A program made the position numbers and the translations under genes. Shown piece by piece: positions 5,420 to 24,306 of a stretch of DNA of 64,000 nt. This stretch comes from Bartonella sp. CM31XJBT (GTDB lineage Bacteria > Pseudomonadota > Alphaproteobacteria > Rhizobiales > Rhizobiaceae): assembly GCF_028618555.1 (NCBI RefSeq), contig NZ_JAQITD010000001.1:62001-126000 (forward strand), in the 5' to 3' direction. The notes below the pieces were generated by a model. It saw only the letters and a program-made list of their open reading frames with translations, was not told the origin of the DNA and searched no databases. Every line of letters starts with the position of its first letter. Position 1 is the first letter of the stretch.

Positions 5420-5494
5420 GCGGGTGTAGCTCAGGGGTAGAGCACAACCTTGCCAAGGTTGGGGTCGTGGGTTCGAATCCCATCGCCCGCTCCA
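5420..5494 (+). tRNA. tRNA-Gly (anticodon GCC)
   Basis: 75 nt with CCA encoded. Acceptor GCGGGTG pairs with CGCCCGC, the D-arm is AGCTCAGGGGTAGAGCA, the anticodon stem-loop is ACCTTGCCAAGGT with GCC, and the T-arm is GTGGGTTCGAATCCCAT. It lies 131 bp outside the prophage end and is intact. It is not the integration site, because the phage is of the transposing type. Confidence 0.97.
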
Positions 5495-5528: not shown

Positions 5529-5604
5529 TATAGCTTGTCATCGGTTGTTGTAGCTGTATGTATCTTGCCAGCAGGTTTTGTATATTTTTCCACTCGGTTT
5601 TGTA
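5529..5604 (+). repeat. Extra phage right-end sites outside the prophage
   Basis: Three 24-bp sites related to the prophage end sites lie just outside its boundary: 5529-5552 (TATAGCTTGTCATCGG...), 5559-5582 (TGTATCTTGCCAGCAGG...) and 5581-5604 (TATATTTTTCCACTCGG...). All end in TTGTA. The pair 5559-5582 and 5581-5604 has exactly the 22-bp register of the true end pair at 5626-5671 and also starts with TG. I read it as the right end of an older related phage; the single site at 5529 may be a third, still older one. Confidence 0.65.
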
Positions 5605-5620
5605 TCAATTTACTTTTTTC

Positions 5621-5625
5621 AAAGT
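5621..5625. other. Target site duplication, left copy (AAAGT)
   Basis: AAAGT directly precedes the TG terminus at 5626 and is repeated directly after the CA terminus at 42825-42829. A 5-bp duplication is what Mu-type transposition produces. Confidence 0.85.
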
Positions 5626-5671
5626 TGTAGCTTGCCAGCAGGTTTTGTATATTTTGACACTAGGTTTTGTA
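5626..5671 (+). repeat. Prophage right-end transposase sites R1 and R2
   Basis: Two 24-bp sites, 5626-5649 (TGTAGCTTGCCAGCAGG...) and 5648-5671 (...TTTTGACACTAGGTTTTGTA), repeat at 22-bp spacing. R1 matches the reverse complement of the left terminus (42801-42824) at about 18 of 24 positions. Adjacent R1/R2 sites of this size are the arrangement MuA recognises at the Mu right end. Between them and dnaB (5672-5772) is AT-rich DNA with direct repeats of the form CAAAGGGTCTTCAAA. Confidence 0.8.
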
Positions 5672-5772
5672 CCAATTTATTTTTTCTCAAAGAGTTTTAA
5701 AGATGTTCTCAAAGGGTCTTCAAATGCCTTTCAAAGGGTCTTTAAAGCTCTCTTTAACGCATTTTTCTGCTC

Positions 5773-7233
5773 CTATTTTTCCAAATCACTAAAGCATGTA
5801 AAATCGGATTGAAAGGCAAGGGGAACGATTCCTGTCGGACCATGGCGTTGTTTTGCTATAATAACCTCAGCTTTACCCTTGGCTTGCTCCATTGCCTCTT
5901 GCCATTTGTTATACTCAGCAGTGCTTTCTTTGGGTTCTTCATTTTTGAGATAATATTCTTCACGATAAACGAACAGAACAATGTCGGCATCTTGCTCTAT
6001 TGAGCCAGATTCACGTAAATCGGAGAGTTGTGGACGTTTATCGGTTCGGTTTTCAACTTGACGTGAAAGTTGTGACAGAGCAATGATGGGAATATTGAGT
6101 TCTTTTGCAAGTGCTTTTAATCCGGTGGTAATGGCTGTAATTTCTTGAACGCGGTTTTCTAATGAACGCTTTGAACCGCTTGTCATGAGTTGGATATAAT
6201 CGATAATCAAGACATCTAGACCATGTTGTCGTTTAAGACGCCTTGCACGGGCGGCTAATTGTGCAAGGGATACACCACCCGTTTGATCAATATAAAGAGG
6301 GATTGTTTGTAAGGAACGCATTGCGTAAATGATGTTGGTAAATTGCTCCTCTGAGATATTACCACGACGCATATCAGAAGAAGAAACCTTTATTTGTTCT
6401 GAGATAATACGAGTTGCAAGCTGTTCGGATGACATCTCAAGTGAGAAGAAACCTACAACGCCCCCTTCATTTTCTTGGCTGTTATCACGCTTACAAGCAT
6501 TGGCAATATTAAAAGCAATATTGGTCGCCAGAGAGGTTTTCCCCATACCAGGGCGCCCTGCAAGGATAATTAAGTCAGATGCTTGTAATCCTCCCATTTT
6601 TTCATCAAGTGTTTTGATATGGGTAGCTATCCCTGAGAGCTTTGAAGAACGCTTTTTTGCAGCGCTTGCCATGTTAAGTGCTTTTGCAATGGCTGTATCA
6701 AAGTTTTCAAACCCACCTCCATATTTTCCTTTTTCGGCGAGCTCAAATAACTGATTTTCAATCGTTTCAATTTGTTGGGAAGGTGTAAGTTCGACAGGAG
6801 CATCAAAGGCTGTATTGGCAACTTCATTGCCAAGATTAATCAAAGACCGGCGGATAAAAAGATCGTAAATGACGCGTCCATAATCTTCAGCGTTAATAAT
6901 AGTGACTGCCTCTGTGGTTAAGCGAACAACATACTGGTATACAGTAATATCTCCAACTTTTTCTTCCATTTGGATATAGGGCTTGATTGTAATGGGGTTT
7001 GCAAGATGACCATTTTGAATAATTTGTAAGACAATCTCAAAGATCTTTTGATGTAGCCTTTCAAAAAAATGTTCTGCTTTAAGAAAGTCTGAAACGCGAT
7101 CGAGTGCATTATTATTAATCAGGATTGCTCCAAGTAATGCCTGCTCTGCTTCAATATTATGGGGAAGTTGACGAAAAGAAGAAGCAAAATTATCTCTTGG
7201 ATTTTCTGTTTTTAGCATGTTCAGTGTTCTCAT
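5773..7233 (-). CDS. dnaB: Replicative DNA helicase, phage-borne DnaB
   Basis: A 486-aa DnaB: N-terminal domain (LPHNIEAEQALLGAIL), linker, then RecA-like ATPase with Walker A GRPGMGKT (about residues 226-233), Walker B LDVLIIDYIQLM, and the DLRESGSIEQDAD and KQRHGPTG motifs. The sequence is of the cellular alphaproteobacterial type, not phage T4/T7 type. I chose ATG 7233 (AAGGGA upstream); 7218 is an alternative and longer frames run into the tail gene. It overlaps the 3' end of the tail hub gene by 44 bp, so it belongs to the late tail transcript, and it is the last gene before the right end, the usual place for accessory genes. Mu-type phages normally borrow host DnaB. Confidence 0.88.
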   Translation of the reverse strand: MRTLNMLKTENPRDNFASSFRQLPHNIEAEQALLGAILINNNALDRVSDFLKAEHFFERLHQKIFEIVLQIIQNGHLANPITIKPYIQMEEKVGDITVYQYVVRLTTEAVTIINAEDYGRVIYDLFIRRSLINLGNEVANTAFDAPVELTPSQQIETIENQLFELAEKGKYGGGFENFDTAIAKALNMASAAKKRSSKLSGIATHIKTLDEKMGGLQASDLIILAGRPGMGKTSLATNIAFNIANACKRDNSQENEGGVVGFFSLEMSSEQLATRIISEQIKVSSSDMRRGNISEEQFTNIIYAMRSLQTIPLYIDQTGGVSLAQLAARARRLKRQHGLDVLIIDYIQLMTSGSKRSLENRVQEITAITTGLKALAKELNIPIIALSQLSRQVENRTDKRPQLSDLRESGSIEQDADIVLFVYREEYYLKNEEPKESTAEYNKWQEAMEQAKGKAEVIIAKQRHGPTGIVPLAFQSDFTCFSDLEK

Positions 7234-8221
7234 TGCTTTCTTTTCCCTTGTCTGGTGCCTCAAAGGTGATTTCTGTGGTATAACCGCTTTGTTTTTCATA
7301 GCAGTGGGTGACGGTCGCAGCTTTCCATGGACCATTGATTTGCCCACGGAACCCTTGAAGAAGCAGAGGTTGATCCGCCATGATTTCAGGGCGTCCCTCT
7401 AAGGTCAAGGAGCCACTGCCCACAGCACGACACAACCTGTCCGACTCGGAAGCAGCAGCAGCTCGTGCTTCCTCCTCACAAGTGTAACAAGTCCGTAAAC
7501 GCCGCACGGGACCGCTAAACCCTGTCTGATGCTTGACTTGGCATTGCTGCCCTTTTGAGCGATCAAAATAAGAAGCTTCAATAGTGCCATATTGCGTGCG
7601 TGGCTCTAACGTAAATTCCCAGTTGGAACAGTCGTGTTTATGAAGTTTGAGTGCTGGTAAATTGTCACCGCTTAAAAACAAAAACTTATTGTCCTTGACC
7701 AAAAAACGTGCCTGCATACGGTCTGCAAGGCGGGTTAAAAAATCAACAGCCGATTGATCCGTACGAATCACATAAGGCAAAGGTTTTTTAGTGAACTGGG
7801 GACTGACCTTTGCTTGATAGCCATGGCGTTTGGCGAGTGTCTCAACAATCTCCCCAACAGTTTTGTGATCAAAATGCTCACTCACCTGTTCTTTGAGCTC
7901 TTTACGCATCGAGGCACTTTTGCCACAAAGACGCAAGATCTCTCCATCACTGCCACCACAACTTACAACCGATTCGACAACAAAACACCCCATAAATGCA
8001 CTGATGCTGTTCTCATAGCCAAAGATCACCTGTAGCGCACTGTTGCTTGAGGGAACCTCTAAATCATTGCCACCATCATCAAATTCTGCTTCAAATGTAT
8101 CGGCTTCATTACCGGCATGGTCAGTGATGGTTGCGGTTAAAAGACGCTGGTAAAAAACCTCATGAACAGGTTTGTCTCCCACCTTGACCACAATAAAGGG
8201 GTGTGTACGCATTAATCCCAT
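7190..8221 (-). CDS. Phage late control gpD / tail hub protein
   Basis: 343 aa, P2 gpD family, which forms the baseplate hub joining tube and spike. Recognised from the N-terminal pattern (HPFIVVKVGDKPVHEVFYQRLLTATITDHAG), the CGKSASMRKELKEQ region and the barrel-domain stretch (RTDQSAVDFLTRLADRMQARFLVKDNKFLF). The C-terminus is a short basic tail (KNRKSKR). It follows gpX with a 10-bp overlap and is followed by dnaB with a 44-bp overlap. Confidence 0.85.
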   Translation of the reverse strand: MGLMRTHPFIVVKVGDKPVHEVFYQRLLTATITDHAGNEADTFEAEFDDGGNDLEVPSSNSALQVIFGYENSISAFMGCFVVESVVSCGGSDGEILRLCGKSASMRKELKEQVSEHFDHKTVGEIVETLAKRHGYQAKVSPQFTKKPLPYVIRTDQSAVDFLTRLADRMQARFLVKDNKFLFLSGDNLPALKLHKHDCSNWEFTLEPRTQYGTIEASYFDRSKGQQCQVKHQTGFSGPVRRLRTCYTCEEEARAAAASESDRLCRAVGSGSLTLEGRPEIMADQPLLLQGFRGQINGPWKAATVTHCYEKQSGYTTEITFEAPDKGKESNENTEHAKNRKSKR

Positions 8222-8466
8222 AACCGCTTCACCATGCTTTGGGGATTAGAAAACACAAATTCAGGCAAAGTAACCGTTAAGCCCCGCGGTAAAAGCACAC
8301 CATATTTGGCAATCTCTGGATTGGCTTCCAATGTAGCTTCTAAATAGCCATTGAGTAAACCAGCTTGCCTCCGGTCTCTGAACACTGCCATGACATGGTG
8401 AAAGCAAAGGAGATCGAGGCTCATATCCTCTAGCTCTACAACAACATGCTTTTCTGGTATCTTCAT
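8212..8466 (-). CDS. Tail protein X
   Basis: 84 aa, P2 gpX family: a small LysM-like tail completion protein. The end contains the LysM-type pattern (EATLEANPEIAKYGVLLPRGLTVTLP). It sits between gpU and gpD as in P2 and Mu-like phages, with 4-bp and 10-bp overlaps to its neighbours. Confidence 0.85.
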   Translation of the reverse strand: MKIPEKHVVVELEDMSLDLLCFHHVMAVFRDRRQAGLLNGYLEATLEANPEIAKYGVLLPRGLTVTLPEFVFSNPQSMVKRLWD

Positions 8467-8924
8467 GGAGTTTGCCCCACTTGGGTTTGTCCCACCTGAT
8501 ATTGTCCTTGTGGTTTTCCGCCATTAAAAAAGGGCAAGAGCGTAATGGAATAGCGGATGCGCTGGGATTGACCAGAGCGACTAATATAGTCGTGGTCTTT
8601 ATTGATCGTGGTGATCACCACGGGTCCATGGAGAAGGACACTATAGGTGGTATCATTGATCCAATGAAGCATCTGCACCGGCTTTGCTCTTCGGATAGTT
8701 GTAGTGATGGCATCAATGGCTACCCGATCACCAAATTCTTCTGGAAACCAAACTCCATGAATGGTCTTTGCATCATTGCCATAGCCGGTAAATTGCAAAC
8801 TGGGTGCCTTGCCAAAACGCTCCATACAAACCCATGAGGCAGAAAGCTCTTCTTCAAAAGATTGGAAATTCAGCCAGTCCACATAAAATTGATGCGGACC
8901 TAACATCATCAAAGGATCTCTCAT
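8463..8924 (-). CDS. Phage tail protein U
   Basis: 153 aa, P2 gpU family, which acts at the tail end during tube assembly. The family features are the N-terminal MLGPHQFYV followed by SASWVCMERFG and the C-terminal strand RYSITLLPFF. The open frame extends to 9047, into the tape-measure gene, but ATG 8924 has GGGGAGGGAG directly upstream and starts 13 bp after the tape-measure stop, so I use that. The C-terminus carries a short direct repeat (QVGQTQVGQTP). Confidence 0.8.
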   Translation of the reverse strand: MRDPLMMLGPHQFYVDWLNFQSFEEELSASWVCMERFGKAPSLQFTGYGNDAKTIHGVWFPEEFGDRVAIDAITTTIRRAKPVQMLHWINDTTYSVLLHGPVVITTINKDHDYISRSGQSQRIRYSITLLPFFNGGKPQGQYQVGQTQVGQTP

Positions 8925-8937
8925 AGGCTCCCTCCCC

Positions 8938-11274
8938 TCATTCTGTCCCGCCATGCAGAGCATTAGCGCGTGCACGTTGAATGGCATGGGCAACCGCACG
9001 ACCAGTGGACACAGGATCACGGGCGCCATTGACATGCACTGTGACATTTTGATTGTGTGTGATGGGGGAGCGCTCTTTGTCTCTTTGCTCTCTCACAGAG
9101 TAATTGGCATACCCCGCCCCTGCAAATTGTGCAATCGGTTGAATGGTTGTTTTGCCTCCCAAAAAACTTGGCAAAAAACCTCTTACATCAATGGACCCAA
9201 ACCACCCCTTAATGCGATGAGGTAAAGATTTACAATAATCCATCAATTGTGAGATAGACGACATAAAGCCATCGACAATCGAATTAGCCAGATCTTCGCC
9301 CGCTTGTTCCATACCAGCCTTGGCACTCTCCGAGAGCTTTTCCTGTGTAAAAAAACTCTTCAACCATTGCCAAAAGTTGGAAAAGCTTTGTTTAACGCCC
9401 TCCCACAAATTGCCAAACCACTCGGCAACAGAGGAAAGCTCTTGTTTAAACTTTTGCCAAACTTGAGAGAAATCAAAAGCAGCAGCAATGATATTTTTCC
9501 ATTTGGTGATGGTGGTGGTATCAGCACCAAAAAAGCGCATAACGGCTTCAAAGGCTTGCCCCCAAGCCCGAGATACCCCCCGTGCCAAACCTTTGACAAA
9601 TGAAGAAAAACGGTCCCAATATTTCCACAAAGCAAAACCAGCTGCCAGTATGACCGCCACAACAGCAGCAATGACCGCCCCTATTGGGGTAAAAATACCC
9701 CCCACAACAGAGGAAAGACTTGCCCCAACCACTTCGATCACTGTCCCCATAAAGCCAAAAGAGGTAGAAAATGCCGCACCTGAAACGGCTATCCCTCGTA
9801 AAGCCCCTACCAGTAAAGTTATGGGGCGAAGAAGACGCAGCGCACTTCCACCAAAGCTTGCTGCTATTAAACCCAGAGAGCGCCCTGCGGCTGCTAAGCC
9901 CCGCCAACTTGCAGAAAGACCACGACTGAGTACTCTAAGCTTAATAAAAGACGTGATCAATTGAAGAAACCCAAGGCGTGTCCCGGCAAGAGTAAAGCGC
10001 AAAACCCGTAGAGCAATATTAAAAGCCATAAGGGCGGCAATGGTTTTGATAATGGCACTTGTTAAAGTGGGATGGGCATTCGCCCACGCCATCAACCCAT
10101 TGGTAAAATTGCCAACACTTTCCATCAAACTGTTGAGGGGGGGCAGAAGCACTTCACCAATGCTAATCCCCAAAGCCACAATGCGGTTTTGCAACAATTC
10201 AAATTGCCGCATGGCACCGGTTGCTTGTTTGTCTGCTTCTTGCTCTACCGAACCTTTAAAGACTTGTGGATCTTTCACATAATCTAAAGCTTGCCCTAAC
10301 AATTCGGGATTGCCCACCAATTTGGCAAAATCACCGGTAAAATCGCGCCCAGCAATGGCAATCAGGGAACGCATCCCCTGTTCGGATTTACCCAACACAT
10401 TAAAAAAGCGCACCAAGGTACCTGTGGCATCTTTGTCCAGATCTTGCATGAATTTTTCGCGAGAAAGCCCGATATTGGCAAAAGCATCTTCAATATGTTT
10501 GCCCCCCGCCTGTATGCGCGCACTCATGGCATTAAAACCACGCGCGGCACTCTCTGGAACAATCCCAGCAGAAATCATCGCTGTACCAAATGCTGCTGTT
10601 TCGCGCGCGGTCAGCTTAAACATGGTTGCCGCACCGGTGGCTCGATTGGTAAAATCAGACACCTCACTTGCCTTTGCCGCCATGTGATTAGAGAGATGAT
10701 TGATAGCATCGCCTAGATCTTCAATGCCTGCTTGATTAAGCTTAAAGACATTGCGCAATTTGGCAAAGCGCTCCCCAATCTGATCTCCCGTCATATCAAA
10801 AGCTACAGCTGCTTTAGCGGCATAGATGCTAAAAGCTTCTAGATCTTGTTCGCCAATCCCTGCTTGGCTGGCACTGGTCATCAATTCTAAGACTTCACGC
10901 GCCGCTAGCGGAATCTTGGTGGAGGTTTCAAGCGCAAAACGGCGCAATTCCTTTAAGCGATCAAGGGGCGCATCCAGAACCTTTTCCAAGCCCTTCATCG
11001 ATTGATCAAATTGCATGGCTTTATAGAGGGGTGCAATTAAGGTTGCTGTTTGCGCAATGGCACCCACCATACGCCCGCGTGCTTGGATAAAAGCATTTTC
11101 CGCATTGGCTGTAGCTTGGCTCAAATGTTCAGGGTCAAACCAATTTTTAAAGTGTTGCCTTGTCTTGTTTTGGAAATGCGCAACATCTGAACTAAAGGCT
11201 GCAAGATCTCGCTTGGCAGAAGCGATCCCCTCTTGCAGATGATTAACAAAACGCACAACAAGGGAAACATCCAT
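8938..11274 (-). CDS. Tail tape measure protein
   Basis: 778 aa. It sets tail length and is chaperoned by the E/E' proteins encoded upstream. The N-terminal half is the conserved TP901-type region (MDVSLVVRFVNHLQEGIASAKRDL; GAATMFKLTARETAAFGTAM), the middle has long hydrophobic, Ala/Gly-rich segments (about residues 390-560), and the C-terminal part is amphipathic with several Trp residues. It lies 9 bp after the E' stop. Its size predicts a rather short contractile tail. Confidence 0.9.
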   Translation of the reverse strand: MDVSLVVRFVNHLQEGIASAKRDLAAFSSDVAHFQNKTRQHFKNWFDPEHLSQATANAENAFIQARGRMVGAIAQTATLIAPLYKAMQFDQSMKGLEKVLDAPLDRLKELRRFALETSTKIPLAAREVLELMTSASQAGIGEQDLEAFSIYAAKAAVAFDMTGDQIGERFAKLRNVFKLNQAGIEDLGDAINHLSNHMAAKASEVSDFTNRATGAATMFKLTARETAAFGTAMISAGIVPESAARGFNAMSARIQAGGKHIEDAFANIGLSREKFMQDLDKDATGTLVRFFNVLGKSEQGMRSLIAIAGRDFTGDFAKLVGNPELLGQALDYVKDPQVFKGSVEQEADKQATGAMRQFELLQNRIVALGISIGEVLLPPLNSLMESVGNFTNGLMAWANAHPTLTSAIIKTIAALMAFNIALRVLRFTLAGTRLGFLQLITSFIKLRVLSRGLSASWRGLAAAGRSLGLIAASFGGSALRLLRPITLLVGALRGIAVSGAAFSTSFGFMGTVIEVVGASLSSVVGGIFTPIGAVIAAVVAVILAAGFALWKYWDRFSSFVKGLARGVSRAWGQAFEAVMRFFGADTTTITKWKNIIAAAFDFSQVWQKFKQELSSVAEWFGNLWEGVKQSFSNFWQWLKSFFTQEKLSESAKAGMEQAGEDLANSIVDGFMSSISQLMDYCKSLPHRIKGWFGSIDVRGFLPSFLGGKTTIQPIAQFAGAGYANYSVREQRDKERSPITHNQNVTVHVNGARDPVSTGRAVAHAIQRARANALHGGTE

Positions 11275-11283
11275 GATCGTCTC

Positions 11284-11825
11284 TTATCCTAACTGATGAC
11301 TTTCATATTCTTGAGCTTTCAGGCGTGCGAGTTCTTCTCGATAGGCAATCACATCCAGCCAATCCATCTGGTTAATCTCTGAAGGCGCCCAGTGATAATA
11401 AAGGGCTAGTTCTGCCCCAAATTGTCTGGCAGAGAGGATTGGCGTTGCGTAAAAAAAGCAAAAAAAGCCTTCAATATTGCGACAATATCCATCACATCAA
11501 CTCGATCAATCAATTCAATAGATTCATGTGACATATCAGCCAAAAGTGCTGTGATGCCTTCTGTTGCCTCACTTGTGAACAAAACTTGAGAAAGCTTCGT
11601 GATAAGCACATCATTGCTCAAAGTTGTTTTTTGCTCTCCAAACTCAGGAAGCAGCAGCTCTGTCAATTGTGGTCCAATGAGCACCGCTAATTGCTTGGCA
11701 TGCTTAAAAGTGGGGCGATAAAAGGTCAGTTTCTTGCAGAGAGATTCTTTGCCACCTTTATCTTGATAAGGAAGCGGAACCTGCAATTCCACGTCAATGC
11801 TGGTTTGTAAACTTGTCATGATCAA
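11284..11825 (-). CDS. Tail assembly chaperone E+E' (-1 frameshift product)
   Basis: The 139-aa frame-0 product (E, 11406-11825) ends with ...AFFTQRQSSLPDNLGQN. A -1 shift on T-runs (TTTTTTT at 11451-11457 and 11460-11466 on the coding strand) continues as YATPILSARQFGAELALYYHW and on to SEINQMDWLDVIAYREEL, stopping at 11284. This is the conserved P2 E' extension, in which a short YYHW segment is typical. The longer form therefore ends 9 bp before the tape-measure start. Expected role: bind the tape-measure protein before tube polymerisation. Confidence 0.85.
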
Positions 11826-11828
11826 TTC

Positions 11829-12347
11829 CTATAAGTTGAGAATAGAGCGGCGGCGAGAACCAATCTCTTGCCCATTGCGGACAAGCCAGCCGCCCCGTTT
11901 AAAAGAAAAGCGGTGCAAAACAGAGCCATCCCAAAATTCCGTATAGTCCCAAACATTTTTGATCTCGCAATCATAGCCTGTCGCTTTTCCAGCCGTTAAG
12001 CCTTCGCTATCCACTTTGACCAAGCGCCCTGTCACATCAATGGAATGCTCATGCTCGCGTCCATCTTCTTCAGAGATCACATGTTTTTTGCCGGTAAATT
12101 TATGACGAAGACCAGGAGGACCACCAAAGATGCCGATAATTTCGGGGGTGTGGCTGCGGATTTTCATTTGCATGCTCAAAGCTTTCACACCAAGACCGCT
12201 CACATCAATTTGCATATCAGAGCCGCCCGGTTGATAGGTTTCAGTGATTTCTTCCAACGTGGGCAGTTTCAATGTCTCAAGATCAAGGTGAAGATTCACA
12301 TCATCATCAACAATCAAGGTAAAACCGCGTACAATGCGTAAAGTCAT
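11829..12347 (-). CDS. Major tail tube protein
   Basis: 172 aa, P2 FII family, the subunit of the inner tail tube. Family-like segments: N-terminal LRIVRGFTLIVDDD, KLPTLEEITETYQPGGSDMQIDV and the strand IKNVWDYTEFWDGSVLHRFSFKRGG. It lies directly after the sheath gene (3 bp gap) and before E, the P2 order FI-FII-E-T. Confidence 0.9.
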   Translation of the reverse strand: MTLRIVRGFTLIVDDDVNLHLDLETLKLPTLEEITETYQPGGSDMQIDVSGLGVKALSMQMKIRSHTPEIIGIFGGPPGLRHKFTGKKHVISEEDGREHEHSIDVTGRLVKVDSEGLTAGKATGYDCEIKNVWDYTEFWDGSVLHRFSFKRGGWLVRNGQEIGSRRRSILNL

Positions 12348-12350
12348 GCT

Positions 12351-13634
12351 TTAACTCCTTGCTGCTTTGCGATAAGTTTCAAGCGTATCGCCAAATTGAT
12401 AAGTCATTTTCTTTTGGATATCTTGCGCCAAACGGTCAAAATAAGCGCTATTGCGCCGGCTGCCGAAACTCAAATCTTCTAAAGGTGGCACTTCTTCTGC
12501 ATCAAATTCCACCCGCAATTTTCCCAATTGTAAAGTGCTGTTGGAATTTAAATCGCGGTCAAACCAAACCCGCCCACCCAAAAGGGCACCACGCGCAATC
12601 ATATCATCAAGAAACTGTGTAAGGCTGCGGGTAATGGCAATAACATGTTGACCGGTCAGATTCTCGTCATTGGCCCAAGGGCGGAAACTGTTGATGATGG
12701 TTTTTTCCAATGCTGCACGGGTGCGCACCACATTGACAAAGCGCCACAATGGGTCACTAGAGGTGGTATGATTTCCCCATAAAATGCGGCCATTGGCGGC
12801 AAATTGACCTTGGGCATTTTGGCTAAGGAGGGCGGGAATAAAGGTCGCAATATCGGCTTGGTTAAGGCGATTTGCCTCATGATCAATTTCACCATCAAAA
12901 TAGCTAATGGGGCGTGCCGTGCCTAAAATGCCTTTAACATCTTGGTTGGAAGGAGACCAAAAAACACCACCCCTTTGCTTATCACGTTTGATAAACATGG
13001 CGGCAGCAAAAGGACTTGCGGGTTTAACACTAACACCCCCCTCACGATTTGCCACCCGTACAAAGGGGTCAATCAAATAACAAAAGCGTGAGGAAAAATC
13101 TGCGCGATAGGCAAGGCTTTCTTCCGCATTTTTACCCCCCGTATCAAACACGGCAATCGCTTGTAGCTTTTCTGCCACTTGTTCCAATGCATCCGCCACG
13201 GGGTTTTTGCCATTATCAAAGCGCCCTGCACTATAAGCCGGTGCCAGTAAAATCCCAGGCTCTACCCCTAAATGCCCCCGCGCATGCGCTAAGGCATGCA
13301 CACCAGTCAAAGCCGTATTGGACCCCACCATCTCAGTTTGTGTCTCAGCAATGGTTGATTTTTCTTCCACACGCACAAGGATAATTTGTGCCTCAATCCC
13401 CTGTGCGCACACGGCTTTAATCACATCAAGAGCCGTGCCTCTTGTTCCAAGCTTTTGGATTTTCTCACCCTCATGGCTAAAAATAAGGACAGGCTCGTCG
13501 AGGGGAAAAATTTGGTTGTCAGCATCAGGGGCTGTAACAACCGCCCCAATGGCGGTCTGATCAAATGTTGCTAAAGGACGGGAATCCTCACCAGCCTCTA
13601 CAATGCGAATCCCATGATTAAATTCTATTGCCAT
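12351..13634 (-). CDS. Tail sheath protein
   Basis: 427 aa, P2 FI family, the contractile sheath subunit. Recognised by NHGIRIVEA at the N-terminus, AVFDTGGKNAEESLAYRADF, an RPISYFDGEIDHEAN region and GNHTTSSDPLWRFVNVVRTRAALE near the end. ATG 13634 is chosen because GGAGAG lies just upstream and the family starts here; the frame itself extends to 13706 across the promoter motif. It is the first gene of the tail tube operon, 50 bp downstream of a late-promoter motif. Confidence 0.9.
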   Translation of the reverse strand: MAIEFNHGIRIVEAGEDSRPLATFDQTAIGAVVTAPDADNQIFPLDEPVLIFSHEGEKIQKLGTRGTALDVIKAVCAQGIEAQIILVRVEEKSTIAETQTEMVGSNTALTGVHALAHARGHLGVEPGILLAPAYSAGRFDNGKNPVADALEQVAEKLQAIAVFDTGGKNAEESLAYRADFSSRFCYLIDPFVRVANREGGVSVKPASPFAAAMFIKRDKQRGGVFWSPSNQDVKGILGTARPISYFDGEIDHEANRLNQADIATFIPALLSQNAQGQFAANGRILWGNHTTSSDPLWRFVNVVRTRAALEKTIINSFRPWANDENLTGQHVIAITRSLTQFLDDMIARGALLGGRVWFDRDLNSNSTLQLGKLRVEFDAEEVPPLEDLSFGSRRNSAYFDRLAQDIQKKMTYQFGDTLETYRKAARS

Positions 13635-13658
13635 CTTGCTCTCCAAATCAATGAAGAG

Positions 13659-13708
13659 AGAATAACAACCATCACCATGCTCCATAAGTCTGACACTGTC
13701 AGTCAAAA
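13659..13708 (-). promoter_or_regulatory. Putative late promoter for the tail operon
   Basis: Contains the palindrome CTGACACTGTCAG (13690-13702, within a 25-bp motif 13684-13708) shared with 25391-25415 and 33146-33170. A TATTCT hexamer on the coding strand (13659-13664) lies about 34 bp from the dyad centre, which would put the dyad near -44, where Mor/C activators bind in Mu. The sheath gene begins 50 bp downstream. The rest of 13709-13838 is AT-rich with AGCTCTTTAAAGG-type repeats. Confidence 0.7.
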
Positions 13709-13838
13709 AGCTCTTTAAAGGGCTTTGAAGGAGCTTTAAAGGGGACTTTATAAGAAGAAACTATACAGTTTACAAGCCATCAGACAATAATTGTCCGTTT
13801 AGAGCGTATCATTCGTTTTTTATACTTGCATAAACCAT

Positions 13839-15197
13839 TCATTCTTTCCATAATCTTATAAGAACGGCACCATCAGCTCCAGCACCGCTTGGAGAGGAAT
13901 CTCCATGAGAGCCAGCACCACCTCCACCAAAACCACCCCCTCCTTTTCCTGAAGCACGAAAACCTTTTCCTGTTCCTCCAGGACCACCTCGAGATGTATC
14001 ACCCCCAGCATCACCTCCACTTCCACTTACACCACCACGATTACCATCTGTTCCAGGATGGCCATTCTCGCCCTTGAAAAGACCGGGGCGATCATTCGTC
14101 GCCAAGCCAAAATTTCCCCCCACTCCTCCAGCTCCACCATTTCCTGGAAAAGATGATGAATAAGCCCCTCCACCACCATGACCTCCTGTTGCTGTGATAA
14201 AATCCTTGCCAATGATTGTTGTTCCTCCAGAGTTTCCTGTCGCACCACGCGAGGCAACAGAAGCTCCTCCTTTTCCAACGATGATAGCTTCATTCCCAGC
14301 TAAACTCGCTTTATAGCCATACCATACTGAACAACCACCACCACCACCTCCTCCTCCTAAACTTGGTGTATCAGATCCACCCCCACTACCGCCGCCGCCC
14401 CATGCTTGGATCTCAACTTTGGTTTTATTGCTTACCCAATCTGGCCACTGAATTTTACCATCCTGCGTATACAGCAATTCAGCATCAGCAAGTTCTGGCC
14501 AATTAATGGGTTTATCAGTAAAAACTTTTTTAAGACTCTTTATTTCTGCCCATATTTCCTGCTTGAGGGCATCCACTTGCGCCTTGGTATAAACAACATC
14601 ACCGTCCACTTTAAGCGGTCCTTTAAGAAAGCTTCCGCTTGTGCTTAAACTGGTAACCATTTCACCATTGTGGATGAGGCTAAACGACGAATTGCCCAAA
14701 AGCTCTAAGGCACCACTCATAGTCACTTTGCTGGTAAATTTATTGTAATTTTTCCATTCATTTGGACTTGTGAGGCGTCCATAGCTTGTCAGATCTTCGT
14801 TGATTTTGGTTCTAAAATCATCAAGCCCCACAATATCTTCGGTTTTATGTTGATGCGCGCCTAACAGAGAGATAGCACTCCCAAAGGTGAAGTTATTATT
14901 GCTTGATTTATAGAGAACATAATTGTTGGCAGCATCTTGTGCACCCTCGATATCACCTAAATCTTTTAAAGTGAAAGTTTTATCCGCTGCCATCTTGCCC
15001 TTCAAGGCTGCTTCAAGATCTGTGACATCACTTATGCTATGCGTGTGTTTTGAAGGCGCTTTTTGGTCTACCTTGTCCTCAATATCAACAATGGCTTGAT
15101 CAATTTTGGTCAAGTTTTCGCGCAAGATTGGGAATTCAGAACTGATAAAACGACCTTCTTTAGGCAATTCCATGTCGAGTTTTTTGGTTTTTGTCAT
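13839..15197 (-). CDS. Tail fibre protein with glycine-rich tip
   Basis: 452 aa. The first 280 residues look like a fibre shaft (HTHSISDVTDLEAALKGKM, FTLKDLGDIEGAQDAANNY, GAHQHKTEDIVGLDDFRTKI), a pattern of short repeats seen in Mu and P2-type fibres. The last 180 residues are very rich in glycine (runs of 4-8 Gly) and end with GADGAVLIRLWKE, the layout of polyglycine-helix receptor-binding tips. ATG 15197 has a weak GGGA upstream and starts 13 bp after the preceding stop; the frame extends to 15311 in overlap. No fibre-assembly gene or invertible segment follows. Confidence 0.75.
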   Translation of the reverse strand: MTKTKKLDMELPKEGRFISSEFPILRENLTKIDQAIVDIEDKVDQKAPSKHTHSISDVTDLEAALKGKMAADKTFTLKDLGDIEGAQDAANNYVLYKSSNNNFTFGSAISLLGAHQHKTEDIVGLDDFRTKINEDLTSYGRLTSPNEWKNYNKFTSKVTMSGALELLGNSSFSLIHNGEMVTSLSTSGSFLKGPLKVDGDVVYTKAQVDALKQEIWAEIKSLKKVFTDKPINWPELADAELLYTQDGKIQWPDWVSNKTKVEIQAWGGGGSGGGSDTPSLGGGGGGGGCSVWYGYKASLAGNEAIIVGKGGASVASRGATGNSGGTTIIGKDFITATGGHGGGGAYSSSFPGNGGAGGVGGNFGLATNDRPGLFKGENGHPGTDGNRGGVSGSGGDAGGDTSRGGPGGTGKGFRASGKGGGGFGGGGAGSHGDSSPSGAGADGAVLIRLWKE

Positions 15198-15210
15198 GTC
15201 TGTTTTCCCA

Positions 15211-18200
15211 TCACAATATGCCGGCGCCAAAATCACACACCATTGACCGCGCTGCTGGTCCACCGGTAAGGGTGAGTTTGAGGCGCGCTTGTTTGGCGCC
15301 TTTATCACCACTGATAAATTTGCGCTCTGTCCAAAGGGGCTCGGATAACTGCTCTGTTTCCTCTAATGTGAGAGGAACAAAAGCACCATCATCCAGTTGC
15401 ATCTCGAGTGTAAATGTTGCACCGCCTGGTAAAAATGTTTTGATATAACTGGTCAACCTTGCCTTTTCCCCAAAGGCAAAAGCACGCGTGACATAAGTGG
15501 CTTCTTTATGGATCTTCCCCGCAACCAATTGAACAGGAGCAAACAAAACAGGTGAGAGTTTCTCTGTTCCTTTAAGAATGGCACGAAGTTTTACTTTTTC
15601 ACTGATATATTCAGTAAGGCTTAGCAATTGAAAGGGCAGGAGTTGATAAATTGTGCCATTGTTTCTTTCAATTTCAAAGATGACAGAACAATCGCTTGAA
15701 GGCAATTCAATCGCTGCGCGTACTTGCAAATCAGAGCAGTCCACAAGATCAAAAGTGCCTAAGTCTACGACTTTTTCTGTTTGTGTGTAGCGTGCCGCCA
15801 GCACCCTAAAAGCTAAAGCCTCATCTTGATGAGCGGTCCAGCTCCTAGCATTGACAGAAGAAAAGCGTGGACCGGTCACGTAAGGGTGGCTCGAGACGTA
15901 TCTTTGGTGTTCTGCATCAAAATCTCCAAGCTTTGCTAAAGAGACGGAATGATCAGCATCATCGGTTTTAATGACAAAAGCCGTTAAACGGTCATCCATC
16001 ACAAGGAGTGGTACATCATAGCGTGCCTCTGCCCAACCTAGCTTTGCGCCCTTCATAGAATAAAAGCTTTGCGCTTGAATATCGGCGGTCGGATAACCGT
16101 TTTCTGTGGTGACCAAATCAATCACCAGATCATGGTTCTGATTGCCGATTTTACAAAGATGAAAGTCAATTCCGGTGATTTGCCGTGTTGCATCAGGGGT
16201 AAAGACTTGCGCTTGTGGGTCCACTTGCGTCCAGATCTTCACCGTGGTGGTGCGCCGCATCACTTTCACATCAATCACGCCTTGCCCTGTAAAAAGACCC
16301 GTAGCAATGGTTCCACCTTTTCCCCGTGCCACAACATTTTTTGTGCCAGCGGTGATATTTTTAGGAATGGTAAAGCTTCCTTCAAGGGTGCCTTTGGTGT
16401 TAGCAACAAGCTTTGTTTTTGGTAAAACATTCACACCATCAAAGGTAAGACTTTCCAAGATTTCGCTACTGCCAAAACCTTCAATTTTAAAGTGAAGGGT
16501 AATTTGTCTTAAAAAGTCGATTTTCTCTTGGGTTGCACTCACCAAATCATCACTGATTTCTGTTTTACGAATGCTTCTCCCACGGTTCCATCCCATGTTC
16601 AGTTGATTGGTGATACCCGAGAGCCAATCTGTGCGTTGTTCATGCCAAAAGTCTGTCGCGGGTTCAAGGGTTACTGTACCAGGCAGGGGTGCAAAATTTT
16701 GATAAGGATTGATTTTTTCGCAAGCCGTTGTCAACTCTTGCGCAATAATCACTTCATTTGTCCAGTCAAGCGTGACAGGCGCTGTAAGATTAGCGGTGTA
16801 AAAGGTTGGGTCAATGGCAAGCTGCAAAATGCCATTGCCTACAGCACCTGTTTGTTGAAAGCCTTCATCTCTGTAACTATCATCAAGAAAAGGGTCTGCA
16901 AACATGCCCTTTTTGGCAACAGGTTCTTTAGAGTCCACATTGCTTTTAATGCGCTCTAATTGCATGAGACGGTCAAGCGAAAGCACCCGTTGAAAATAGC
17001 GCCACATCTCATCATAGGGGGCAACCCGTGTGCCATCATTGACCACAACCGGCGTTTCAAGCCAATTGTTGGTAATGGTTGCAAGGGACAACACATCATC
17101 AGGGACACTGGGTGCCATGGGTTGGTCTACTGAGATACCTTTGATGTAAACCACATTGCCCCCCGTGTTCAGTCCTATGCGGTCAATGCGGGGCAATTTA
17201 TAAGTGTAACTGACGATAATATCACCACCCTCCGCCCCACCTGAGACTGTGATTTCCTTTGCTGTTACCTTATCAGCGGTAATTTTTGCGCGATAGCGAT
17301 AAGTCACCTTATAGCTACTTCCCGCTAAAGGTTCGTCTCCTACGGGCGCCCAATCAATGGTGTCTCCGGTTTTTTTAAAATCTGTGCCTTCTTTAAATTC
17401 CTTGCTTCCTTGAACGACTTTGATAAACGCGGTGATGCTTTTATCAGGAACCCCATCACGCCCTGCGGCAACTGCACCACGGGTGACGTTAACGGTTTTT
17501 TCTTTTGTCAACAAAAGAGACTGAATATCGGCAATAGGAAAATAATAGGGTTTAAAGGTAAAGCTTGTTTTCCCTTTTGAAGGCGCAAAAATATGCGTTT
17601 CGCTTGGAACAACGCTTGTCGAAAAATCTTGCATCTCTTCATGGCGCAAGGCGGCAAGGCGTTTACGTTTAAAGCCATTGATATTGGCTTCTCCTTCTTG
17701 AATACTAAACACTTGGCAACTGTTGTTTGGTCCTAATGCTGTCACACGGCAGCCACTCACGATATAATGCCCATGGGCGCGGTCGTACGTCGCAATAGCT
17801 TGCATGGCGGGTTCAAGCAATGAGGGGGATTTTTGATCAATCAGAACACCATCTTGTAAAATATAAACCGGAAAGAAAGTGCCATTCTGCGCATCCTCTT
17901 TTAGTGCCCAAACAAGCTGTGCTGTTTCGCGTGCGGCACCAGGCTCTCCTTCTGCCAATGTGCCAGGGACTTGCCCCAACAACTCTGGATCATCCTCATG
18001 GGTTATCCATTTTTTTTGCAGCTTCACACCAATTTCCAAGCGCCCAATCATGGCAACATTGTTGAGTACAGCTGGTGCAACGGGGAAAATATCGCCTGCG
18101 ATATAAATCTTGCCATCCGTTAAAGTCACTGTTTGCGTATCTTTGTTGACAAACGCATCTGCTCGTTCAACACGGTCTCCTTCTTTGGCAACAAGGCGCC

Positions 18201-18354
18201 CCAAACGGTCATGCCGTCCCCTTATAATGGTTTGAACCTCATTCAGTTCACCACTTTGAATAAAGGGACGCGTGCCATAAAAGACAACACTTTGTTGTTC
18301 CTCTTTGCCGCGAGATCTGTCAATTGCAAAGGGTAAACCACTTTCATGCTTCAT
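15211..18354 (-). CDS. Large tail/baseplate-associated protein (DUF4815-like)
   Basis: 1047 aa. Located between tail protein I and the fibre, it is probably a long baseplate or fibre component. The N-terminal third (FAIDRSRGKEEQQSVVFYGTR; QSGELNEVQTIIRGRHDRLG; DGKIYIAGDIFPV) fits the DUF4815 type found in Mu-like phages. The remainder is beta-rich, with an Ig-like stretch near residues 635-700 (ILESLTFDGVNVLPKT; GTLEGSFTIPKN). No enzyme motif is seen. The family name is from memory of the pattern and less certain than the structural role. Confidence 0.65.
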   Translation of the reverse strand: MKHESGLPFAIDRSRGKEEQQSVVFYGTRPFIQSGELNEVQTIIRGRHDRLGRLVAKEGDRVERADAFVNKDTQTVTLTDGKIYIAGDIFPVAPAVLNNVAMIGRLEIGVKLQKKWITHEDDPELLGQVPGTLAEGEPGAARETAQLVWALKEDAQNGTFFPVYILQDGVLIDQKSPSLLEPAMQAIATYDRAHGHYIVSGCRVTALGPNNSCQVFSIQEGEANINGFKRKRLAALRHEEMQDFSTSVVPSETHIFAPSKGKTSFTFKPYYFPIADIQSLLLTKEKTVNVTRGAVAAGRDGVPDKSITAFIKVVQGSKEFKEGTDFKKTGDTIDWAPVGDEPLAGSSYKVTYRYRAKITADKVTAKEITVSGGAEGGDIIVSYTYKLPRIDRIGLNTGGNVVYIKGISVDQPMAPSVPDDVLSLATITNNWLETPVVVNDGTRVAPYDEMWRYFQRVLSLDRLMQLERIKSNVDSKEPVAKKGMFADPFLDDSYRDEGFQQTGAVGNGILQLAIDPTFYTANLTAPVTLDWTNEVIIAQELTTACEKINPYQNFAPLPGTVTLEPATDFWHEQRTDWLSGITNQLNMGWNRGRSIRKTEISDDLVSATQEKIDFLRQITLHFKIEGFGSSEILESLTFDGVNVLPKTKLVANTKGTLEGSFTIPKNITAGTKNVVARGKGGTIATGLFTGQGVIDVKVMRRTTTVKIWTQVDPQAQVFTPDATRQITGIDFHLCKIGNQNHDLVIDLVTTENGYPTADIQAQSFYSMKGAKLGWAEARYDVPLLVMDDRLTAFVIKTDDADHSVSLAKLGDFDAEHQRYVSSHPYVTGPRFSSVNARSWTAHQDEALAFRVLAARYTQTEKVVDLGTFDLVDCSDLQVRAAIELPSSDCSVIFEIERNNGTIYQLLPFQLLSLTEYISEKVKLRAILKGTEKLSPVLFAPVQLVAGKIHKEATYVTRAFAFGEKARLTSYIKTFLPGGATFTLEMQLDDGAFVPLTLEETEQLSEPLWTERKFISGDKGAKQARLKLTLTGGPAARSMVCDFGAGIL

Positions 18355-18355
18355 A

Positions 18356-19477
18356 TTAAAACCTCAATAAAATCTTGAATTGTTCGCGAACATCGGCACG
18401 CAAAGGAATATTGATAGGTGTTTTGAGTATCTCGACACCGCCATTTAGTTCATTGGCGTCACACCAAAGCTTGCCAAAGGGGATATCAAGAGGGACATCT
18501 TGTTTGGGAATGCCGTGAACGAGAATAGAAACAAATGCTGCTTGTTTCCCATCAACATCGTGAAAGTCTGTGCGTGCTGCCAGAAACAACAGAGTGCCCA
18601 TCGAGGAGGGCTGAAACCTGACGCCACAATGGCTGTACACACCATCCAAAGCTTGTTCGACAGGCGCTACAGCATAGCATCTGCGATACCCAATCACGCC
18701 ATCTTGGCTGTCTCTTAACACGAGATAAAGCGTGCGACCATGAAACCATTCTGCCATGAGCATATCGCGTTCATGTTTTTTGACCGAACACCACGGAAAA
18801 TTTGCCAAATCCCAAGGATAATCGATTTGGTTCCAGCTTAATTCTTCATCCCCATCATCTATCCAATTGCCAATAAGTTTGCCTTCTTCTCTTGTGAGAA
18901 TGCGCTCTATCTCTGTCGTGCGTCCAAAGGAAAACAAAGTATTCCCAGCTGTTAAGCGCACACCGCTCTCATACTCCAACATGCTGTCATCAAGGCGTGA
19001 CATATTGCCTTCCATGGCTTGCACATCATACCCCGCAACACCACGACGAAAATCGGAGCGCAAACTTTTGGAGAGATCTGTAATCGCTTCAATAGCTTCA
19101 AGGCTTTTGCGTTCAGGCAACTGATCAAAATCAAGTTGAAAGGAATTCCACCATGCTCGCCCTGTCCATGCGGGTTGAAAGCGTGCCGAAATCCCTAGCC
19201 ATTCAAGCCCCATCTCTATTGCCGCAAGGGAGCCGCGAATATTTTGCCATGCAAGACCCTGATCAATTAAATCATAAAGGGTAGAGAAATAAGGGTTTAA
19301 TTCTTGTAAGCCATATTCGTCTATTAAAAAGGGCAACCAAGAAGGCGGACGCGTGATAAATTTCGCGCGGGGTATTTCTTCGAGTGCCGTTTTAACGTGA
19401 GGGTCAAGAGCCATTGCTTCGGCAAAACAACGTTCAAACAAGCTCGAATTTGGAGGCAAAAGTGAGGAAAGCATCAA
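18356..19477 (-). CDS. Tail protein I
   Basis: 373 aa, P2 gpI family, a baseplate wedge component. Seen from the N-terminus (LLPPNSSLFERCFAEAM), the Pro-rich IPRAKFITRPPSWLPFLIDEYGL and WQNIRGSLAAIEMGLEWLG. It is longer than P2 gpI (about 176 aa), with an extra C-terminal domain of about 190 residues. It overlaps gpJ by 4 bp, as in P2 (J-I order). Confidence 0.8.
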   Translation of the reverse strand: MMLSSLLPPNSSLFERCFAEAMALDPHVKTALEEIPRAKFITRPPSWLPFLIDEYGLQELNPYFSTLYDLIDQGLAWQNIRGSLAAIEMGLEWLGISARFQPAWTGRAWWNSFQLDFDQLPERKSLEAIEAITDLSKSLRSDFRRGVAGYDVQAMEGNMSRLDDSMLEYESGVRLTAGNTLFSFGRTTEIERILTREEGKLIGNWIDDGDEELSWNQIDYPWDLANFPWCSVKKHERDMLMAEWFHGRTLYLVLRDSQDGVIGYRRCYAVAPVEQALDGVYSHCGVRFQPSSMGTLLFLAARTDFHDVDGKQAAFVSILVHGIPKQDVPLDIPFGKLWCDANELNGGVEILKTPINIPLRADVREQFKILLRF

Positions 19478-20361
19478 TAAGCACGCCCCCGTTCAGACAA
19501 GACAATATCCCCCAAAGCTACAGCTTCATCAGGTGCGACCAAAATATCCTCACAAGGTTGCGTTATGTTCACATGGTGAACGCCCTCAACCATCAAGCGG
19601 CTTAGTATCCAACTTAAAGACAAATCACGCCCAAGCCTTTGCGCACGCGCCCATTCTGCTCTTAAATTCTGCTCCGCTCTTTCCAAAACAAAGGAGCCTT
19701 CATCCGGTAACAACCAAAAATCAGCAGAAACATTGATCATCCGCTGTACCGCGCTTTTCACAAGGATGTGGTCATTGGTCATTTTAACATGGGGGGCATC
19801 AAGGGCTGCTTGCACCTTTGCAATTAAAGCCTCATCAGCCACCCCTGAAGGGGCGTCACTGAAAAGCGCAACATGAATAAGCGGACTTTTACCCTCACGA
19901 TAAACAAAAGCATCTTTGACATGGATATCGCTTGAGAGGGCAAAATATTGATAACGTGGCGCTGTGCCACCTGTGGAATGTCCTTGTCTATTCAAGCGAA
20001 TGCGGCGGCGCAAACGCTCATCATCTTCATCCAAAAGGCGCGTGACCCCATGAAAATCCCCCAAATGATCCAAACTTGTTCCACGCGCAAATGTGAGTAA
20101 ATTATCCCGCGCCACTTCATTAATTCGCTGGCGCAATAGCAACTCTTCATAAGCCGCCGCTTGCAATTGAATGACAACCGGATCATAAGCCGTCTTTTCC
20201 ACATTATAAGGAATATGATGCGCCGCAAAAAGCTCAGTCAAACGCGTGATCTTTTGCTCTAAAATTGCTTCAACAGAAAGCTCTTCAATAATTTGTGGCA
20301 GAGGGAGTTGTGGAGGGGGAATCTGTGAAAAGGATAAAGGTTCAAACTCAGTCATCACCAA
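19474..20361 (-). CDS. Baseplate assembly protein J
   Basis: 295 aa, P2 gpJ / Mu gp47 family. Typical segments are QAAAYEELLLRQRINEVARDNLL, GTSLDHLGDFHGVTRL and RRRIRLNRQGHSTGGTAPRYQYFAL, followed by the conserved VALFSDAPSGVADEALIAKVQAAL. It overlaps gpW by 14 bp and gpI by 4 bp. Confidence 0.9.
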   Translation of the reverse strand: MVMTEFEPLSFSQIPPPQLPLPQIIEELSVEAILEQKITRLTELFAAHHIPYNVEKTAYDPVVIQLQAAAYEELLLRQRINEVARDNLLTFARGTSLDHLGDFHGVTRLLDEDDERLRRRIRLNRQGHSTGGTAPRYQYFALSSDIHVKDAFVYREGKSPLIHVALFSDAPSGVADEALIAKVQAALDAPHVKMTNDHILVKSAVQRMINVSADFWLLPDEGSFVLERAEQNLRAEWARAQRLGRDLSLSWILSRLMVEGVHHVNITQPCEDILVAPDEAVALGDIVLSERGRAY

Positions 20362-20728
20362 CCTCTAAATCAATACTCATTGGTTCTTGGTGTGACCAAT
20401 CCCCCAAATGCCCATCGGGATAAAAAACACCCGTTAAAACAAAATGGAATGTGCCTTCACGCGTTGCTTTTGTCAGATCAATCCTCTGCAACGAAAACCC
20501 AGGATCTCCACACTCTGGATCATCGAGTGCTTCAACAATTGCTTGATAAAGCTGCATCATCGTCGCAGGATCAGCATTGGCGTCTTGGAATGCTCCAACA
20601 TCACATCCATAATGACGACGCAAAACCCGTGTCCCAATTCTTGTCGTCAGACATTTACGGAGTGACTGTTGACAATGCGCAAAGCCATATAAAAGAGAGC
20701 CATCCTTTTCGCTCATCCCGCACCGCAT
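20348..20728 (-). CDS. Baseplate assembly protein W (gp25-like)
   Basis: 126 aa, P2 gpW / T4 gp25 family, a baseplate wedge protein. The marker is CLTTRIGTRVLRRHYGCDVG near residues 29-48. It lies between the small 66-aa gene (3 bp gap) and gpJ. Confidence 0.88.
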   Translation of the reverse strand: MRCGMSEKDGSLLYGFAHCQQSLRKCLTTRIGTRVLRRHYGCDVGAFQDANADPATMMQLYQAIVEALDDPECGDPGFSLQRIDLTKATREGTFHFVLTGVFYPDGHLGDWSHQEPMSIDLEVGDD

Positions 20729-20731
20729 GCT

Positions 20732-20932
20732 TTAAGCTCCTTTGCTTGTCTTTGTGGTAGAAACAGTTGGGGGCGCAGAAACAACAGGTGCTGGTTTTTC
20801 AGTGATCTGACCAAGCAGCAACGGATATTTAGCCTCTTCCTCACTTAAACAAATTTCCTCACCCTTGCCCGGTGAACGCTTGCCTGCAACAAAATCGGCA
20901 TTGGTTAAAATAACATAAGTGTTCTCACGCAT
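20732..20932 (-). CDS. Small phage protein of unknown function
   Basis: 66 aa, between baseplate genes V and W. The sequence has a conserved-looking core (KGEEICLSEEEAKYPLLLGQI) and a Pro/Thr/Ser-rich tail. Short proteins of this kind occur at the same place in Mu-like phages (near Mu gp38); the function is unknown. A ribosome site (AGGAGT) precedes the ATG. Confidence 0.6.
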   Translation of the reverse strand: MRENTYVILTNADFVAGKRSPGKGEEICLSEEEAKYPLLLGQITEKPAPVVSAPPTVSTTKTSKGA

Positions 20933-20944
20933 GATAAAACTCCT

Positions 20945-22547: not shown

Positions 22548-22548
22548 A

Positions 22549-22971: not shown

Positions 22972-22986
22972 GTTTAAAAGTTTCCC

Positions 22987-23952: not shown

Positions 23953-23964
23953 TTTAAGCCTCGA

Positions 23965-24306
23965 TTAATTAATTTTAAAAGGAATAACATCACCAGCAGA
24001 ACCATCACTCATGGCAATACCAATGGTGCGGTCTGCTGCTTCTGCCTTTATGGCGTGCCCTTTGGGGTCAGAGGTTAAAAAATCACCAAAGGAAACATTG
24101 CCCCCACAAACAACTTCACCCCAACCACATTGGCCAACATCAATCATCTCACCAGCCTTGGCTTCACAAGACCCTGCAGTCCCTAATAATTTATCACCCT
24201 TACCAGAAGCCGTTGCCACCATTCCCTCAGTGCGGGCTGCAACAATGCAATAAGGTGAGATCACATCTCCAGCGCGAAAAGATTTAATCAAAATCATCGT
24301 ACTCAT
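23965..24306 (-). CDS. Capsid decoration protein (DUF2190-like)
   Basis: 113 aa, beta-rich and Gly-rich, between protease and capsid. It resembles capsid cement proteins (FRAGDVISPYCIVAARTEG; NVSFGDFLTSDPKGHAIKAEAADRTIGIAMSDGSAGD). It overlaps the protease gene by 4 bp. Confidence 0.75.
   Translation of the reverse strand: MSTMILIKSFRAGDVISPYCIVAARTEGMVATASGKGDKLLGTAGSCEAKAGEMIDVGQCGWGEVVCGGNVSFGDFLTSDPKGHAIKAEAADRTIGIAMSDGSAGDVIPFKIN

Follow-up and report, generated by a model that had tools for sequence, protein, structure and literature searches.

Different mobile elements are known to settle beside tRNA genes. Retrotransposons of yeast and Dictyostelium reportedly use the flanks of tRNA genes as integration sites in compact genomes; they are eukaryotic retroelements with other machinery, and integration at tRNA flanks is what they share with the phage clade described here. 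Tn7-like homing beside tRNA genes can use TniQ/TnsD. Homing of Tn7-like elements and CASTs beside tRNA genes by means of a CRISPR guide is reported in the available part of the source, and transposition next to tRNA genes is their likeness to the clade (PMC11656645). In Desulfovibrio piger, 13 of 18 prophages lie in or next to tRNAs and three groups have Mu-like proteins, which is their likeness to the clade, but the accessible portion of that report states no transposase mechanism (PMC12724379).

Insertion of phage Mu is described as random, whereas the clade to which the present prophage belongs inserts in one orientation and is linked to tRNA genes; the same source, as far as its text was available, describes biased integration for two Mu-like phages of Citromicrobium (PMC12486242). 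The phage phiA occupies a 40-bp zone of one hypothetical gene in all 24 strains, and phiB uses six hotspots, both with 5-bp duplications; replicative transposition of phiA occurs chromosome-wide despite the biased integration (PMC12486242). Both phages are like the tRNA-targeting clade in biased integration and 5-bp duplications, but the phiA zone is in a hypothetical gene, and the tRNA sites given in the available text belong to integrase phages (PMC12486242). Biased Mu-like integration and Tn7-like homing by tRNAs are already in print; for Mu-type transposition aimed at tRNA genes, a search of open-access literature returned no report. The reading put forward, with a probability of about 0.9, is that a Mu-like clade, mainly of Hyphomicrobiales, uses DDE transposition to insert in a zone that extends from about 0 to 130 bp beyond the 3' end of tRNA genes, its R end toward the tRNA, and that newcomers split the R ends of residents. 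Positions, orientation, duplications, uninterrupted states and split older ends were observed directly.

The window, i.e., the whole stretch of 64,000 nucleotides analysed from Bartonella sp. CM31XJBT, contains a Mu-like prophage at 5626..42824 with its late genes on the minus strand. The R tip (TGTAGC..) starts at 5626 and the L tip (..CTACA) ends at 42824, and they are flanked by matching copies of the target duplication AAAGT at 5621..5625 (R side) and 42825..42829 (L side). The live R end (5626..5692, plus strand) has two sites in a 22-bp register, and the L end occupies 42690..42824 (minus strand). A MuA-type DDE transposase (36731..38710, minus strand; DDE_2 and Mu-transpos_C Pfam matches) and a MuB-type AAA ATPase (35362..36480, minus strand; Phage-MuB_C match) belong to a gene set, mostly on the minus strand, that also includes GemA, a Mor-like regulator, portal, terminase, sheath and tape measure; the GemA match is present and the Mor match is below the Pfam cut-off. 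TniQ was not detected among ten window proteins scanned against Pfam. The prophage is like Mu and Mu-like phages in its MuA, MuB, GemA and Mor-type genes, its head and tail genes, its TG-tipped ends and its 5-bp duplication, and its assignment to the Mu-like phages rests on MuA/MuB-type genes, TG..CA tips with a 5-bp duplication, Mu-type regulators and a head-tail module. Its MuA is closest to that of Bartonella taylorii (93% over 648 columns) and is about 36% identical to those of Mu and D108. A DnaB-like replicative helicase gene (5773-7347) adjoins the R end; the 3' end of a DnaB-like gene also flanks the R ends of loci L004 and L005, and L002 differs there.

Further ends lie outside the live one. 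A direct repeat relates 5559-5618 to 5626-5685 (54 of 60 positions identical, spacing 67), each copy starting with TG and having two sites in the 22-bp register, which confirms the second TG-starting R1/R2 pair that the first-pass annotation had read outside the right end. The outer copy is a 67-bp R-end stub of an older relative (5559..5625, plus strand), whose last 5 bp form the target duplication. The single site that had been proposed still further out, at 5529..5552 (plus strand), also stood up, as the oldest, decayed R1-like site or stub: it agrees in 21 of 24 bases with R1 of L007, another R end of the same genome, and just three 24-mers, among all those of the window on both strands, score at least 20 against this query. 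The strings TGTAGC and TGTA at 5549..5558 (plus strand), which overlap this site, are suggestive only of very short stubs; the string of 5549..5558 stands ahead of the old R end in genome G053 too.

The other side of the split end is found beyond the L tip, where 42830..42911 (plus strand; end point taken from the alignment) is the interior continuation of the older R end. The segment 42825-42917 matches genomes G053 and G021 at 94-95%, and in both its counterpart directly adjoins an R end, so that the old end is uninterrupted there; this old end leads into a fragment resembling the 3' end of the DnaB gene at the right end of the live phage. The uninterrupted R end of G021 adjoins tRNA-Gly; in G053 the contig opens on the L end of a further copy, immediately outward of the old R tip, which leaves no room for the tRNA to be seen. 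This tRNA-Gly is followed in G040 by a short element that runs from an R to an L tip within about 350 bp. Alignment of the joined window flanks to G021 and G053 thus recovered the uninterrupted old end, and the flank, rather than matching host DNA only, is continuous with a phage R end, as expected from the earlier suggestion that the sequence from 42830 onward is the inside of an older end. The serial insertion into an older relative at one spot that had been proposed on these grounds is accepted, because G021 and G053 keep the uninterrupted state and the same architecture occurs in other species. The live prophage interrupts the R end of an older relative at a depth of 67 bp, and the tRNA-Gly locus is one that was hit repeatedly; at least one older end, and probably two or more, preceded the live prophage there.

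An origin of the outer copies in local duplication or in host repeats, instead of in earlier insertions, is scarcely credible. The two copies in the window are indeed adjacent and 90% identical, but the likeness of the outer one to G021 and G053 carries on over the junction, into the phage interior and the DnaB fragment, and R. sophoriradicis, R. chutanense and R. paknamense keep the rest of the outer end beyond the L tip. A host intergenic repeat as the source of the outer copies was ruled out, because the repeats are tips of phages and run on into their interior.

From about 42912 the window consists of a flank common to many Bartonella genomes, as far as the thiD side. A GNAT-type acetyltransferase gene in this common flank (43082-43788) looks broken; the names GNAT and thiD are in part our assumption. 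The dead phage-type methyltransferase that had been listed after the older end is in fact a remnant on the late-gene strand (about 45052..45440, minus strand), where tblastn with gp30 of phage POA1180 gave 37% over 95 aa and 48% over 54 aa as separate pieces, but it does not continue the old end. Because the shared, GNAT-bearing flank from about 42912 intervenes, the remnant is assigned to a separate older phage, and its membership in the same old end was rejected. Matches to 44173-45425 are found at numerous places across the genus, and some of these sit just inside R ends.

The target gene of the nested ends is tRNA-Gly(GCC) (5420..5494, plus strand; ARAGORN), with its 3' end toward the R tips and the live R tip 131 bp outside it; the first-pass annotation had made no mention of this gene. 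Four further R ends of the same genome lie behind tRNA-Ser(TGA), tRNA-Met(CAT), tRNA-Gln(CTG) and tRNA-Gln(TTG), the 3' end of the tRNA again toward the R tip, and R-end matches were found in at least 44 of 71 Bartonella genomes. Among the matches listed, 95 R-end places were examined, comprising 80 stretches, ten places from the following rows and five in the own genome. The 80 stretches were taken in listed order, the own genome apart; G053:C1:147, which is close to the start of its contig, and G021:C1:262647, the uninterrupted old end at tRNA-Gly, are not among them, and two of the 80 have two listed rows each (G040 1408850/1409053 and G028 26678/26781). Among the rows from which the ten places came, G067:C11:203 and G067:C10:965 were passed over, and four places (G054:C23:109123 and, in G066:C2, 2531135, 1484639 and 1343563) had already served in the duplication test. 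The own mini-element L006, which has no tRNA, was left out of the own-genome places; five further R ends (L238, L242, L244, L237 and L233) and three G040 mini-elements (L402-L404) are outside the 95.

A tRNA in the same orientation was found at 77 of the 95 places, with the closest R tip -1 to 131 bp from its 3' end, so that random or near-random integration, which is typical of Mu and optional for membership among Mu-like phages, is not what Bartonella presents. The tRNAs are Gln CTG (24), Met CAT (17), Ser TGA (16), Gly GCC (11), Pro GGG (4), Lys CTT (4) and Gln TTG (1), and no opposite-strand tRNA occurs within 300 bp. A random position would satisfy a criterion of 150 bp plus orientation with a chance probability of about 0.0014, a figure that is not a p-value since the copies share descent. 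Two nested R ends were seen by BLAST in 15 of the 95 places. For the five R ends outside the 95, a tRNA was found at three (L238, Gly, 102 bp; L242, Ser(CGA), 13 bp; L244, Met, 50 bp) and none in the stretch examined at L237 and L233.

Nine of the remaining 18 places sit just 3' of an exact 16-nt tRNA-Ser 3' end, and L145 adjoins a variant of it. The R ends with the tRNA-Ser(TGA) 3' end alone are L117, L135, L138, L145, L151, L159, L164, L169, L173 and L187. These fragments may be att copies of another integrating element that parted the flank from its tRNA. Seven of the 95 places have neither tRNA nor fragment (L154, L160, L161, L165, L177, L180 and L405); L154 has a tRNA-Thr at 527 bp. Rfam, applied to 17 tRNA-less places (L405 not among them), detected only two tRNAs, none near a tip. 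The R end of L125 (G021:C13) abuts an L end. Tandem phages were observed at L125, where 4 bp separate an L tip from the R tip of another copy, and at L233 (G066), where this gap is about 50 bp.

Mini-elements were observed as well. One in the own genome (G000:C1:274479-274770, L006/L009) has R and L tips within about 290 bp, and three in G040 (L402, L403 and L404), of about 250-350 bp, have R and L tips and little else; no tRNA occurs in the stretches examined around any of them. The flanking 5-mers agree at four of five positions in L403, L404 and L009, and the G000 mini-element and L403 look like the same old insertion.

Duplications speak for transposition. An exact 5-bp duplication together with an L tip TGTTG.. 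or TGTAG.. was found in 16 of 23 named relatives (for L378 the upstream stretch searched was 5.6 kb only), and duplications were also found in Roseibium (CCGCT), R. paknamense copy b (ACCAA) and the order genomes G288 and G439. Among ten Bartonella pairs, five have one, namely the window, three of four pairs in G066, and G030; the matched G066 copy with TCGAC has no tRNA within the 340 bp examined outside its R tip. No duplication was found in seven of the 23 named relatives, in G090, or in the other five Bartonella pairs. A given 10-mer of this kind is estimated to occur by chance about once per fifty 10-kb stretches. L tips were sought as any TG or TA start after the duplication, ranked by likeness to R sites, which did better than a TGTAG tip rule (few L ends found); inverted-repeat BLAST was of little use for the L ends of relatives. 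Likeness to R sites was 12-18 of 21 against a background best of 11-15, which separates poorly by itself; all 16 accepted L tips start with TGTTG or TGTAG, a feature noticed afterwards, and this is what separates them from background.

Because the duplications differ between sites, the insertions have no common att sequence. Integrase prophages at tRNA genes have their crossover within the tRNA and long att identity, whereas this prophage has its live tip well outside the tRNA and a duplication of 5 bp; integrase-type integration at the tRNA was rejected on the tips outside the tRNA and the 5-bp duplications differing between sites. These phages insert by DDE transposition, with a fixed orientation, in the zone behind the 3' end of tRNA genes.

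The same pattern is found beyond Bartonella. MuA relatives occur in 20 of 397 genomes sampled from the order (own genome counted) and at 74 loci of named records (Bartonella counted). The 26 non-Bartonella loci of the 74 with enough contig on the R side, which hold 27 MuA copies in 25 genomes, were tested over the stretch 20-40 kb past MuA; Bartonella loci, loci near contig ends, and L317 and L354 (the records of G090 and G439) were left out. The R end lies 16-102 bp behind a tRNA in 25 of the 27 copies. In 24 of them the tRNA is on the predicted strand 20-40 kb past MuA, and beyond its CCA comes an R end TGTAG.. with a second site about 22 bp further; the live tip is 16-102 bp from the tRNA in 23, and the 24th copy, R. 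paknamense b, has three stacked tips at about 17, 54 and 91 bp. The anticodons of the 24 are CAT (21), Leu(TAG) (2) and Ser(GGA) (1). Five of the CAT tRNAs start with GGCGGAG, which we take to be elongator Met, and 16 with GGGCC, presumably Ile2.

Three copies remain. In Roseibium the R end follows a CAT tRNA at a distance of 37 bp, this tRNA being only 15.5 kb beyond MuA; in R. paknamense copy b stands between copy a and the tRNA; and in Pannonibacter a 3' fragment of tRNA-Met is 30 bp away from copy b, with tRNA-Met 12.4 kb beyond. Order genomes G288 (Ser), G090 (Met) and G439 (Thr) fit the pattern. In G189 the first copy has an R end without a tRNA, followed by a second MuA-like gene, and tRNA-Met in this genome has another R end 80 bp away. 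G456 has a plausible R end by inverted-repeat BLAST, with no tRNA there. A tRNA-Pro (G439) and a tRNA-Arg (G212) called by ARAGORN were judged false by their sequence.

Split residents recur in these species. R. sophoriradicis (L377/L322) and R. chutanense (L379/L362) have a stub TGTAGCCGG between the tRNA and the live tip; on the far side of the prophage, past its L tip, come GCCGGAC.. and the remainder of an R end that differs slightly. In both, the newcomer went into a relative already resident there, at its first site. In R. paknamense the sequence beyond the L tip of copy b picks up exactly where a 37-nt tRNA-side stub ends, copy a with its own MuA lies further out, and a third R tip within the end of copy b is another event. 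The newcomer of R. straminoryzae (L386/L338) is between the tRNA and older tips, and two Martelella loci have three and five stacked tips. The 9-nt stubs TGTAGCCGG, TGTAGCGCG and TGTAGCGTG recur across species (L377, L378, L379, L401, L391 and L387), as if the first site of the resident R end had a preferred entry point.

In the mechanism proposed, the zone would be defined by the tRNA and not by the sequence at the insertion point, and a later relative would land on or beside the R end of the resident. A newcomer landing inside the resident deprives it of its R tip and leaves a short R-end stub at the tRNA, after which the resident is presumably immobilised and decays. Repeated insertion at one spot would follow because the zone 3' of tRNA genes is targeted. 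It is very improbable that insertion is as random as in Mu and that selection keeps only harmless sites, such as those behind tRNA genes. Some copies are found elsewhere than behind tRNA genes, and lytic Citromicrobium Mu-like phages transpose chromosome-wide according to the available text (PMC12486242), both of which suit such selection, but it ought to allow both orientations and other intergenic sites, whereas the insertions have a single orientation, a narrow distance and the same bias across many genera.

Targeting coincides with one lineage of transposases. In a MuA tree with midpoint root, all tRNA-targeting copies fall into one 39-row group (support 100/99), which also holds POA1180, Aussie and Mwe-Yong1, counted apart from them, and eight controls fall outside. 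The controls have no believable tRNA 20-40 kb past MuA (20-30 kb in G362), their R ends being mostly not located; in control G416 the opposite strand bears a tRNA-Met at 18.4 kb. The isolated phages POA1180 (Ochrobactrum), Aussie and StopSmel (Sinorhizobium) have a MuA 50-53% identical to that of the prophage, and they carry p134.

The protein p134 (40169..40573, minus strand; phrog_9734), a small early protein, is the candidate target selector and is predicted to be a stand-alone DnaA-domain-IV-like protein. Homologues were found in 33 of 34 named non-Bartonella loci tested, including the records of G090 and G439 (the exception being L348, with none, and L304 having a weak one at 28%), and also in G288, G189, POA1180 and Aussie. 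A comparison with 50,697 phage records matched p134 in POA1180 (two records), Aussie and StopSmel and in no others. No homologue was detected at 11 distant loci of order relatives (G212, G456, G144, G196 twice, G416, G304, G140, G155, G362 and G422), or in the stretches of Mwe-Yong1, which is inside the MuA group, and RhkSP1. A Pfam scan gave no match for p134 or p152, and the p134 alignment gave weak SduA_C matches only (2 of 38 members). The predicted structure (pLDDT 87.1, pTM 0.78) resembles DnaA domain IV (1j1v, Z 12.2, rmsd 1.9 A over 92 residues; 3pvp, Z 12.6), the best non-DnaA row being at Z 5.6. The 12 best Foldseek rows are DnaA, with weak E-values (0.075 at best), and Z scores like those of the DnaA rows can also arise between unrelated helical proteins.

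The link of p134 to targeting is a correlation from one clade only, seen in sequences. A phage protein, most likely p134 with the MuB-type ATPase, may read the tRNA gene, pass the site to the ATPase and fix the orientation. Tentatively, and at less than even odds, p134 might be one half of a split DnaA-like selector that reads a tRNA feature and recruits the MuB-type AAA ATPase, giving the set distance and orientation; insertion would then be an inter-phage weapon, and the stub ladders would log the invasions. It is somewhat less likely that the state of the tRNA gene (strong transcription, termination, downstream supercoiling) attracts the phage, and not a sequence-reading protein. The insertions downstream along transcription and the wide sequence variation of the tRNAs used would fit attraction by gene state, but p134 has a predicted DNA-binding fold and is nearly confined to the clade, and no shared feature was noticed at the seven tRNA-less Bartonella places, whose neighbours were not analysed.

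Mu is the textbook case of near-random transposition, and the clade, of which the isolated members Aussie, StopSmel and POA1180 are on record, lets the gain of target specificity by a Mu-type machine be tested. For annotators, a prophage next to a tRNA need not imply an integrase. The stub ladders are a readable log of serial invasion at single loci and, if the reading is true, the clade would be a phage counterpart to the tRNA-targeting retrotransposons and to Tn7-like homing.
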